This document shows, one piece after another, positions 27,457 to 58,754 of a DNA stretch of 64,000 bases (the stretch's first letter is position 1; each line of letters opens with the position of its first letter). The position numbers and the translations under genes were made by a program. The stretch comes from Thermococcus barophilus MP. Lineage in GTDB: Archaea; Methanobacteriota_B; Thermococci; Thermococcales; Thermococcaceae. Where the stretch lies: NCBI RefSeq assembly GCF_000151105.2, contig NC_014804.1:930001-994000 (forward strand), written 5' to 3'. Under the pieces are notes generated by a model. It was not told the origin of the DNA and searched no databases. It saw only the letters and a list, made by a program, of their open reading frames with translations.

Positions 27457-28485
27457 TCATTTCTTTCTCATGAACCAGCTCTCCAAAGTTGACTGTTTTC
27501 CGGCTCTTATTGCTTTCTTCAGCCTTTCGAGACCGTTCTTTACTCTTTCCTCGCTGAAATCGTGCTCATCACATAAGAACTTTAAAATGCCTTCTTCATC
27601 TGGCATCTTCCAGACGAGCTTGTAATCATCCGTAACAGGGGGATTTAGGAAGAACTCCTTGATTGCATATAAATCAACGTCGCTCATCTTCTGATACTTC
27701 TTTAGGGGATCTTTTGAATATCTGACAATCTCCAGAGCTTTCTTTGGACCAACTCCCTTAATGCCACCTGGATTATAATCCGTTCCAACCAGAATAGCAA
27801 GTTCTATGAGCTTTTCCCTGTCAATTTTCAGTTCTTTTAGAACTTCTTCCAAAACAATTAGCTCTGGCTTTACTTCAACATAAACATCTTTTCCGGGAAG
27901 CTTTCTTCTGCCCGTTATTGTCAAATTCCTAACAAGCCTTGGTGCTCCAAACAAAAGTGAGTCATAGTCCTGAGAAGCTGAAGCCCAGACTTTACCCTTT
28001 GATGCCATATAAGCCGCTTGAGCCTCACCTTCACTCGGAGCCTGCACCCATGGAATGCCCATAAGCTCTAACAATTTTTTAGCATCCTCTATCAGCTGCT
28101 CATTCACCCTTGAAGCTCTCTGGGCATATTTCTTTGCCTCCTCCAGATCACCTCTTGCTAAAGCCTCCTGCCACTTTTCCTCAGCTTCTTCCCTTGCTTC
28201 CGCTCTTTTTTCAAGCTCCTTCTTCTTGAATTCTGGCGGCTTTCCATCAAAGACATAAGCTGGCTTTATTCCTGCTTCCATGAGGTTTATCGTCCTGTAG
28301 AACAGCCCAGAAAGATGTGAAGTTATCCTCCCCTTAGAGTCCATGAGAGGTGTTCCATCTCTTTGTCTGATAATGGAGAGGAACTGATAAATTGCATTTA
28401 AAGCATCAATGGCTATCTTCCTTCCGTTTAGATTTTCAATCTCAATTTCTTTTCTTGGAACAAGCTCACCTATCTGAACTCCCAT
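27457..28485 (-). CDS. fen1: Flap endonuclease 1
   Basis: 342 residues from ATG 28485. [24 protein letters not shown] (catalytic aspartate), [10 protein letters not shown] and [14 protein letters not shown] (helix-hairpin-helix) are FEN1 hallmarks, and the C-terminal QSTLESWF is a PCNA-binding box. It removes 5' flaps during Okazaki-fragment maturation and repair. The ATG overlaps the TGA of the upstream psiE gene (TGATG), so translation should be coupled. ggtgagga precedes it. Confidence 0.97.
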
Positions 28486-28910
28486 CACTCCTCACCTATC
28501 TTAATGTATAGATATCCTAACACAAATATAAGGCCTGCGATTGCAAAGAGCTTTATGGCATCCAGCTCTCTAAAATCGGAAGCAACAACAAGCTTTTGAA
28601 TGAGAGCAACTATTCCAACTTCCAATATGTGGGTCAGGCTAACTCGGTGCTGTCTTAAGTAGATTATCAGAATTCTATAGGTTTCTATGAGGATTATCGT
28701 AACGAGGACATTTGCAATCAACAGCTTAGGCTCGGCAACTTTGTATGTGAGCTTGAAGTTCAAATAAATGGAGTACATGGTAAGATATAGTATGAAAAAC
28801 AAGAATACCATAACCACCATATCAAAGCATATCTCAAGGGTCTTTCTGAAGGCTTTGTGAACCTGAGTATATTGGGCGACTTTCTCTTCTTCCATCTTTG
28901 CCATTTTCAT
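28485..28910 (-). CDS. PsiE-family membrane protein
   Basis: 141 residues (138-139 if one of the later ATG codons is used). Four hydrophobic segments with [16 protein letters not shown] between segments two and three match the phosphate-starvation-inducible PsiE family, of unknown biochemical role. Start is unclear: ATG 28910, 28904 and 28895 are all possible, and the first overlaps the D box of the predicted C/D RNA. Its stop overlaps the fen1 start. Confidence 0.82.
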
Positions 28911-28966
28911 CAGCCTACCGGTGTGCTCATCACCCCTCAGATGAGGGGAAGGATCATCATCACTTT
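28907..28966 (-). ncRNA. C/D box guide RNA overlapping the start of the psiE-like gene
   Basis: On the minus strand the order is C box gtgatga (28957-28963), a 16-base guide (28941-28956), D' box ctga (28937-28940), a 3-base spacer, C' box gtgatga (28927-28933), a 13-base guide (28914-28926) and D box ctga (28910-28913). Box sequences are all perfect and spacing fits archaeal sRNAs that direct 2'-O-methylation by fibrillarin, Nop5 and L7Ae. The base paired with the fifth guide base before each D box would be methylated. Targets were not identified. The D' region also forms a short inverted repeat (28933-28948). Confidence 0.82.
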
Positions 28967-46573: not shown

Positions 46574-46700
46574 GGTACGGCGGTCATAGCGGCGGGGCTA
46601 CACCCGGTCTCGTTTCGATCCCGGAAGTTAAGCCCGCCAGCGATCCCGGTTGTACTGCCCTCCGAGAGGGGGCGGGAAGCCGGGGACGCCGCCGGCCACT
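46574..46700 (+). rRNA. rrf: 5S ribosomal RNA
   Basis: The stretch carries the full archaeal 5S sequence: helix I from ggtacggcgg paired with ccgccggcc at the end, the loop ttcgatcccggaagttaagc, and the GC-rich helix with ccctccgagagggg. About 127 bases; the ends are set by the pairing of helix I and may shift by a base or two. A TATA box lies 25 bases upstream. It is a stand-alone 5S gene, not attached to 16S/23S, as is usual in Thermococcales. Confidence 0.96.
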
Positions 46701-56931: not shown

Positions 56932-57942
56932 ATGAGGAAACCCAAAGTGTTCATTACAAGACAGATTCCGGAGACCGCGATCAATGTTATCAGAGAGTAC
57001 TATGAGGTAGAAGTCTGGAGAGATGAAAAAGAACCCCCGAGAGAAGTACTGCTTGAGAAGGTTAGAGACGTTGATGCCTTAGTAACTCTGCTGAGCGACA
57101 AAATTGACAGGGAAATCCTTGACAATGCCCCAAGACTTAGAATCATCGCTCAATATGCAGTCGGCTACGACAATATTGACATTGAAGAGGCTACGAGAAG
57201 AGGAATCTATGTAACCAACACGCCAGACGTTTTAACCGAAGCCACAGCAGATTTCGCTTGGGCTCTGCTTTTAGCAACAGCGAGGCAGTTAGTTGATGCT
57301 GATAAATTTGTGAGGAGTGGGGAATGGAAGAGAAAAGGCGTTGCATGGCATCCGCTCATGTACCTCGGCTATGATGTCTATGGAAAGACAATCGGAATAA
57401 TAGGCTTTGGAAGAATAGGACAGGCGATAGCAAGAAGAGCCAGGGGATTTAACATGAAGATTCTCTATTATTCTCGCACAAGAAAGCCTGAAAAAGAGGA
57501 AGAACTTGGAGCTGAGTTTAAACCGTTAAATGAGCTGCTTAGGGAGAGCGACTTCGTGGTTTTAGCAGTTCCATTGACAAAGGAAACCTACTATATGATA
57601 AACGAGAAGAGGCTTAAGCTCATGAAGCCAATGGCAATACTTATCAATATCGCAAGAGGAAAGGTTGTTGATACAAAAGCCTTGATTAAAGCTCTCGAAG
57701 AGGGCTGGATTGCCGGAGCGGGCTTAGACGTCTTTGAAGAAGAACCCTACTATAACAAGGAGCTCTTTAAACTGAAGAACGTGACCTTGGCACCACATAT
57801 AGGTAGTGCAACTTACGGAGCAAGATATGCAATGGCAGAGCTTGTTGCGAGGAATTTGATAGCCTTCGCTAAAGGTGAAGTTCCGCCAACACTTGTGAAT
57901 AGAGAAGTCCTGAATGTTAGGAAGCCTGGGTTCAGCCGATGA
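56932..57942 (+). CDS. gyaR: Glyoxylate/hydroxypyruvate reductase (D-2-hydroxyacid dehydrogenase)
   Basis: 336 residues. [19 protein letters not shown] is the NAD(P)-binding loop, [13 protein letters not shown] and LAPHIGSAT are family signatures, with the catalytic His of the latter. Length and sequence match the glyoxylate reductase of Pyrococcus and Thermococcus. It starts at ATG 56932. One or two C/D box RNAs follow its stop. Confidence 0.93.
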
Positions 57943-57990
57943 GGAGCTGGATCCGACCTGAAGGGTGATGATCCAAAGATTCCGAGGCTT
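57937..57990 (+). ncRNA. Probable C/D box guide RNA with weak D box
   Basis: C box atgagga (57939-57945, one mismatch), 12-base guide, D' box ctga (57958-57961), 3-base spacer, C' box gtgatga (57965-57971), then a guide of about 12-16 bases. No perfect D box follows; cttc at 57987-57990 is the nearest candidate. The regular spacing on the first half is convincing, the end is not. The C box overlaps the gyaR stop codon, so it is read on from that gene. Confidence 0.5.
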
Positions 57991-57991
57991 C

Positions 57992-58045
57992 AGATGATGA
58001 TCCCACCCTTGGCTGATGTGATGATGAAGCCTCGTGGTTCTGATT
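57992..58045 (+). ncRNA. C/D box guide RNA
   Basis: C box atgatga (57994-58000), 12-base guide (58001-58012), D' box ctga (58013-58016), 1-base spacer, C' box gtgatga (58018-58024), 15-base guide (58025-58039), D box ctga (58040-58043). All four boxes are perfect. It should bind L7Ae, Nop5 and fibrillarin to direct 2'-O-methylation. It fills the gap between gyaR and the DUF72 gene. Target not identified. Confidence 0.85.
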
Positions 58046-58754
58046 AAATCAGCCTCTTAAACCTTTTTGCATCGTCACACATATAGACATTGTTAAAGTA
58101 AATGTAGCTTTCCTTTTTGTTCCACTCTTTTACCCGTTCTGCAATCTTTTCAAGCTCTTCATCAGTATATTTGTGCTTGTAAATTATCCTCCCGTTCTCG
58201 TATGCCCCATGAAGGCGATAGTAATTGATGTTCCCTTTGTGAAGAGGCTTTCTGGCGAGAGGGTCTGTTACATCAATGACATCAAATTCTCTCACGAATT
58301 TCTTTATCCCCTTTTCGCTCCAGCCTCTAAGCTCAACAGCTATCTCAATGTCCCTGCTTATCTTCGAGAAGAACCCTTCAGCGTTGGCAAAGTTTTCCTC
58401 GGTTTCCTTAAAACTTTTGGGAAGCTGGATTAAGATAAAACTTGCGTTCAAAATTCTTGCTTCGTTGAGTGTTATCTCCCAGTACTTAAAGACCTCATTG
58501 GTAGGCTTCAAAAATCCAACATCTCTGCTTGGCTTAACGTTGCTCCTCTTCCATGTTGGACTATTGGCTGGATGTGTTATTCCCTGAAAAGCCTTGATTG
58601 AGAATATAAAGTCCTCGGGTGCTTCGCTCTGCCATTTTTTAAGGGTCTTTTCTTTCAAAATTCGGTAAAAAGTCTGCTGAATTTCAACTGTCTTGAAATT
58701 TTGGAAATATCTTTTGCGGGCTTCACAAAAGCCACAGGTACCAACAAAGATCAT
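58044..58754 (-). CDS. DUF72 domain protein
   Basis: 236 residues with the DUF72 TIM-barrel-like pattern: VEIQQTFYRI near the start, IELRGWS-type (EIAVELRGW) in the middle and YYRLHGAYENGRIIY in the later part. DUF72 proteins are widespread and uncharacterised. ATG 58754 follows ggtgagactcc. The stop codon touches the D box of the C/D RNA on the other strand. Confidence 0.9.
   Translation of the reverse strand: MIFVGTCGFCEARKRYFQNFKTVEIQQTFYRILKEKTLKKWQSEAPEDFIFSIKAFQGITHPANSPTWKRSNVKPSRDVGFLKPTNEVFKYWEITLNEARILNASFILIQLPKSFKETEENFANAEGFFSKISRDIEIAVELRGWSEKGIKKFVREFDVIDVTDPLARKPLHKGNINYYRLHGAYENGRIIYKHKYTDEELEKIAERVKEWNKKESYIYFNNVYMCDDAKRFKRLI

Follow-up and report, generated by a model that had tools for sequence, protein, structure and literature searches.

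Two C/D box RNA genes behind gyaR

The window, the whole stretch of 64,000 nucleotides analysed here, is part of genome G000 (2,064,237 bases, 2 contigs). Between gyaR and a convergent DUF72 protein gene it holds two adjacent putative C/D box guide RNA genes, termed RNA1 and RNA2, with the following features.

56932..57942, + strand: gyaR, glyoxylate reductase (NCBIfam NF009714, 621.6 bits, cut-off 455)
57934..57989, + strand: RNA1, sR49-related C/D box guide RNA gene (R1 relative model)
57934-57937 (AGCC) with 57986-57989 (GGCT), + strand: RNA1 C stem, 4 bp
57939..57945, + strand: RNA1 box C, ATGAGGA (alignment, pair counts)
57946..57957, + strand: RNA1 D′ guide GCTGGATCCGAC; candidate target 23S 2462-2471, G2464
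57958..57961, + strand: RNA1 box D′, CTGA
57965..57971, + strand: RNA1 box C′, GTGATGA
57972..57981, + strand: RNA1 D guide TCCAAAGATT, replaced relative to G002, G004 and G005; without convincing target
57982..57985, + strand: RNA1 box D, CCGA; G-C at 3b.3n with box C
57983-57992 and 58025-58034, + strand: perfect 10-nt inverted repeat across RNA1/RNA2
57988..58045, + strand: RNA2, sR48 (RF01132) C/D box guide RNA gene (47.5 bits, gathering score 40)
57994..58000, + strand: RNA2 box C, ATGATGA
58001..58012, + strand: RNA2 D′ guide TCCCACCCTTGG; pairs with 23S 2637-2648, predicted G2641
58013..58016, + strand: RNA2 box D′, CTGA
58021..58027, + strand: RNA2 box C′, ATGATGA (alternative: overlapping GTGATGA, 58018-58024)
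58028..58039, + strand: RNA2 D guide AGCCTCGTGGTT; target ambiguous
58040..58043, + strand: RNA2 box D, CTGA
58044..58754, − strand: DUF72 protein gene, convergent on RNA1/RNA2 (PF01904, 137.9 bits, cut-off 25.3)

A first-pass annotation had proposed two adjacent C/D box RNA genes at this site, and the Rfam matches, a box scan and the RNA1 relative model all agree with it. Its account of both edges also holds: RNA1 and gyaR overlap, with the TGA stop of gyaR (57940-57942) inside RNA1 box C, and RNA2 box D directly abuts the stop of the opposite-strand DUF72 gene (58044-58046). Scanning both strands of the window for C-D′-C′-D at archaeal spacing, with a scoring scheme made for this analysis, returned three candidates (RNA1, RNA2 and 28907-28963) and none in 30 first-order Markov sequences of window length. 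The site at 28907-28963 (− strand) is another C/D RNA (Rfam snoPyro_CD, 49.5 bits, cut-off 45), which overlaps the ATG of an ORF at 28485-28910 (− strand). The window also contains a 5S rRNA gene (46576-46697, + strand), separate from the 16S-23S operon (G000:C1:812425-817203).

RNA1- and RNA2-type genes are adjacent in five g1 genomes, while in g2 genomes with both types (for example G012, G016, G020 and G044) the two genes lie at separate places. The five aligned tandem loci have identical boxes, RNA1 D′ guides and RNA2 D guides; they differ in linkers, flanks, the RNA1 D guide and, in G003 only, the 5′-most base of the RNA2 D′ guide. We are highly confident that two C/D box guide RNA genes are jointly the best explanation of this tandem, and both RNAs are very probably guides of rRNA methylation, as predicted from features visible in the sequence itself: the boxes and their spacing, the RNA2 family match, RNA1 homology, covariation in the RNA1 k-turn and a 12-bp duplex of the RNA2 D′ guide. 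From these we infer transcription, processing, RNP assembly and methylation.

Anatomy and predicted targets of RNA2

All four RNA2 boxes are perfect, with guide spacers of 12 and 12 nt and a D′-C′ linker of 4 nt (archaeal box C/D sRNAs have guides of about 12 nt and linkers of 3-5 nt), so that the earlier description of four perfect boxes at guide spacing (57994-58043) stands. Of the two guides then proposed, 58001-58012 is retained, while 58025-58039 included the end of box C′ and is corrected to 58028-58039. At 47.5 bits against a gathering threshold of 40, RNA2 belongs to Rfam sR48, and its counterparts exceed the same cut-off in 4/4 same-genus loci. RNA2 is without a stable terminal stem (1 bp in G000 and G003, 0 in G002, G004 and G005); in an excerpt of PMC7994747 it is the boxes that count as essential for C/D sRNAs, and not the stem.

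Aligning the guides to rRNA and tRNA, as the first-pass annotation had suggested, gave mixed results: the RNA2 D′ guide fits 23S rRNA and the RNA1 D′ guide fits it weakly, while the RNA2 D guide is ambiguous and no target was found for the RNA1 D guide (target p values for the several guides are uncorrected). The RNA2 D′ guide forms 12 bp with 23S 2637-2648 (11 Watson-Crick and one G.U; p 0.007 with 300 shuffles, p 0.015 with 200) and is predicted to specify 2′-O-methylation at G2641 (N+5). This 23S site is identical in 11/11 genomes aligned, and G2641 corresponds by alignment to approximately E. coli G2543, a position in helix 91. Helices 90-93 are described as a methylation hotspot in the excerpted text of Dennis et al. 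2015 (PMC4644070).

For the RNA2 D guide, 16S G576 can be paired with three G.U pairs (p 0.06-0.10). A second candidate at 23S 2580-2590 was rejected: the nucleotide that would be methylated is mismatched there, and the p value of 0.013 holds only with that mismatch allowed, rising to 0.70 if pairing is required there. The Rfam consensus sR48 D guide likewise shows no fit at 23S 2580-2590 (p 0.72-0.75). Among 44 tRNA genes, of which the intron-bearing ones may be incomplete, none of the four guides of the tandem found targets above shuffled guides (p 0.20-0.96).

RNA1: k-turn, homology and an exchanged guide

In RNA1, the guide annotated earlier at 57946-57957 is the D′ guide exactly as written, but the accompanying statement that this RNA has no clear D box does not hold, as CCGA at 57982-57985 is box D, paired with ATGAGGA. 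We set box C at ATGAGGA (57939-57945) because in this placement the C stem has 4 bp, the D′ spacer measures 12 nt and relatives show compensatory changes; the alternative CCGATGA (57936-57942), without a C stem and with a 15-nt spacer, was set aside. The resulting C/D k-turn has tandem G.A pairs, G-C at C6/D1, a C5/D2 pair and the C stem. Its C5/D2 (3b.3n) pair is G-C here, A-U in G012, G020 and G023, and U.U in six relatives. Across 13 distinct rows, both partners vary in 4/6 of the C-stem and k-turn pairs, giving a covariation score of 0.485 compared to a shuffled mean of 0.200 (sd 0.044; 0/500 as high) and to 0.333 with the pairing slid by +1. The count of further pair types is not unusual, being reached by 83/500 shuffles, and the rows are related, so that the covariation may represent perhaps two or three events.

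Box C/D k-turns are mostly U.U at this position (excerpt of PMC5689011), and those of U4 favour G-C or G-U; a k-turn with G-C at 3b.3n fails to fold in ions but does so on L7Ae (both from an excerpt of PMC4382518). Since such a k-turn folds on L7Ae and that of RNA1 covaries, RNA1 is plausibly a working C/D RNA. It would nevertheless fail a k-turn rule such as that of snoReport, which requires a uridine in the U-U pair (excerpt of PMC7994747), and so illustrates how a C/D RNA with G-C instead of U.U can escape rules of this kind.

Homology was assessed with a profile (R1 model) built from 12 sR49 loci (3 same-genus, 9 g2), with the window genome and G003 left out. The model finds RNA1 at 57936-57971 (37.7 bits, E 6.9e-11) as its best match in the window and its one match in the whole G000 genome, covering the C-to-C′ part and ending before the D guide. 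Among 94 family genomes it matches 15, compared to 12 for Rfam sR48 and 19 for Rfam sR49. In Rfam itself RNA1 reaches 27.4 bits for sR47 and 25.1 bits for sR49, both below cut-off (gathering threshold 50 for sR49), and an Rfam sR49 search of G000 returned nothing at E<=0.001. Its counterparts in G002, G004 and G005 score 48.1-48.6 bits for sR49, also below 50. RNA1 is therefore called sR49-related and not an sR49 member.

The RNA1 D guide is TCCAAAGATT in G000 and G003, GGGAGGTACTGT in G002 and G004, and TGGAGGTACTGT in G005; judged from the alignment, RNA1 has exchanged or lost this one guide and kept the rest. The D guides of G002, G004 and G005 fit 23S U2500 (G000 numbering), with p 0.020 in G004 (U2501 there) and p 0.080 in G005. 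Both G004 RNA1 guides, D′ and D, match 23S at sites 36 nt apart (joint p 0.0013), and paired guide targets within 100 nt are usual (excerpt of PMC4644070). A compensatory difference is seen in G016, where the sR49 D guide has A against T in G004 and the 23S has T against A in g1; the sR49 D guides of G012, G020 and G023 have drifted and show no fit to the 23S site (p 0.24-0.46). For the RNA1 D′ guide, 23S G2464 is the first candidate and 16S G326 the second; at p 0.12-0.16 the G2464 target is weak by itself.

The G000 RNA1 D guide has no rRNA target (p 0.995-1.0), and its longest exact complement in the rRNA operon and flanks is 7 nt. Its full complement occurs at 39 sites in G000, one of them the guide itself, compared to 7 for the reversed pattern. 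The 15 of the 39 sites that were inspected share no common repeat, and ATC-TTT-GGA codons are a likely candidate for the cause.

The first-pass annotation had suggested that the first RNA may be a decayed duplicate. We find the contrary, as RNA1 and RNA2 have different nearest Rfam families and no guide in common, g2 genomes with both types hold them at separate loci, and RNA1 keeps a covarying k-turn. A related reading, in which RNA1 is a dying sR49 gene that has lost its D guide and serves at most as a single-guide RNA beside a functional RNA2, is unlikely, although it is the alternative we take most seriously. Consistent with it, the D guide of G000 and G003 is replaced, 2 nt shorter and without rRNA or tRNA match, and decay does happen, because G018 keeps a broken tandem remnant. 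Against this, the terminal k-turn boxes, C stem and D′ guide are identical in 5/5 g1 loci, the k-turn shows compensatory change, and orphan guides beside a working guide are common, amounting to 28% of Pyrobaculum guides (excerpt of PMC7994747).

Predicted expression, the gyaR slot and comparison with known systems

Under the preferred reading of two guide RNA genes, the gyaR transcript would extend at its 3′ end through RNA1 and RNA2; the C/D and C′/D′ motifs would be bound by L7Ae, Nop5 and fibrillarin, the flanks of both RNAs would be trimmed, and the guides would direct 2′-O-methylation of 23S rRNA. The RNA2 (sR48) D′ guide would act at G2641 and the RNA1 (sR49-related) D′ guide would probably still be used near G2464, while the RNA1 D guide, which fits U2500 in G002, G004 and G005, would have been exchanged for a sequence without recognisable rRNA target. 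Only 8 nt separate RNA1 box D from RNA2 box C, and 57880-57993 contains no stretch of five or more consecutive A/T bases; processing of a joint precursor into both RNAs is plausible on this layout. The 10-nt inverted repeat occurs in 5/5 g1 loci. One arm covers the D box and C stem of RNA1 and the other the end of RNA2 box C′ and the RNA2 D guide, and their pairing would be in competition with the RNA1 k-turn; the repeat may also have arisen simply from constraints on the sequence. Folding the stretch as a whole gives a weak signal (z −1.95; equalled by 10/200 shuffles).

RNA1 could instead be mainly a k-turn element at the gyaR end that, bound by L7Ae, protects or processes the message and releases RNA2. 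The stop codon inside box C, the lack of an A/T-rich promoter-like run in 57880-57993 and the targetless D guide would suit such a role, and cis elements may be among the predicted guide RNAs (excerpt of PMC4247193), but we consider it improbable, given that the RNA1 D′ guide is conserved with g2 sR49 at unrelated loci and that in three relatives the D guide has a 23S match. Chance C/D-like sequence, favoured by nothing weightier than RNA2 D and RNA1 D guides without clear targets, has a negligible probability in view of the empty control sequences, the Rfam match over cut-off and the conservation in five loci.

Returning to the two guide RNA genes, we compared the site across genomes. gyaR was found in 79/94 family genomes, and its 3′ flank was read in 69 of the 79. 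A C/D candidate lies behind gyaR in 29/69 (5/5 g1, 4/9 g2 and 19/44 g3 genomes, plus G093; none in 1 g4, 3 g5 and 6 g6 genomes), with guides that differ between lineages. G093, a draft contig assigned to g3 and perhaps misplaced, has a gyaR with 92% identity to that of the window. Its locus (L019, contig C61, ~1475-1555) is a deletion-shortened tandem with the RNA1 start fused to the RNA2 D′ guide half. In G018 (g5; L008, ~1525-1560), an apparent remnant of the g1 tandem behind gyaR consists of the RNA1 start and the RNA2 D half. The g2 RNAs behind gyaR carry guides other than those of the window; one g2 locus (L118, G044) has at least two C/D candidates in a row, also with guides unlike the window's. 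The 19 g3 RNAs have a common D guide (17 carry CTGGACCCGTG and 2 differ from it by one change), which can form 11 pairs with 16S in 3/3 genomes tested (p 0.005-0.025), and their D′ guides (C-D′ half) fall into four types, in 11, 4, 2 and 2 genomes, one type being the sR48 D′ guide. Among those g2 and g3 loci that were searched against Rfam, only L135 scored over a cut-off (snoPyro_CD, 45.8 vs 45).

C/D genes behind gyaR with lineage-specific guides are less expected than the tandem itself. It is possible, and we suggest it only tentatively, that the gyaR 3′ end is a long-lived Thermococcales C/D slot whose RNAs swap guide halves without changing position (the g3 halves; the D-guide swap between close genomes in the g1 tandem), and where the 10-nt complementarity in g1 could make a precursor fold that excludes the RNA1 k-turn. 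The locus offers a natural series for guide turnover, with one gene slot, constant boxes and exchanged guides.

The tandem is mostly ordinary and belongs to a well-known kind of RNA. According to an excerpt of PMC7994747, one in four archaeal C/D genes extends into the 3′ end of an ORF, in almost half of these cases with the stop in box C, and C/D gene clusters occur in archaea; with both stop-codon overlap and clusters already described there, the tandem arrangement is expected. Our search of the main texts of open-licence papers found none on a gyaR-linked C/D pair. Compared to C/D genes at ORF 3′ ends and in clusters (Tripp et al. 2017, as cited in that excerpt), the locus is alike in its stop within box C and in its tandem genes without a visible promoter of their own, and differs in the particular genes only. 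It contributes two well-placed additions to Thermococcales C/D guide RNAs, with one testable 23S site.

RNA1 is like Rfam sR49 (RF01303) in its D′ guide CTGGATCCGA, its boxes and their spacing, but scores below cut-off, has a replaced D guide and combines D box CCGA with C box ATGAGGA, giving G-C at 3b.3n. RNA2 matches the full sR48 model (RF01132) above cut-off and has the D′ guide CCCACCCTTGG in common with g2 loci; it is located behind gyaR next to RNA1, whereas the g2 copies lie elsewhere, and its D guide begins AGCCTCG where most g2 copies have GTCTCG. The closest parallel to the g3 loci is guide-module rearrangement (Dennis et al. 2015, excerpt of PMC4644070): in both, one half of the RNA is constant and the other differs, but here the difference lies between species at one orthologous site, not within one genome.
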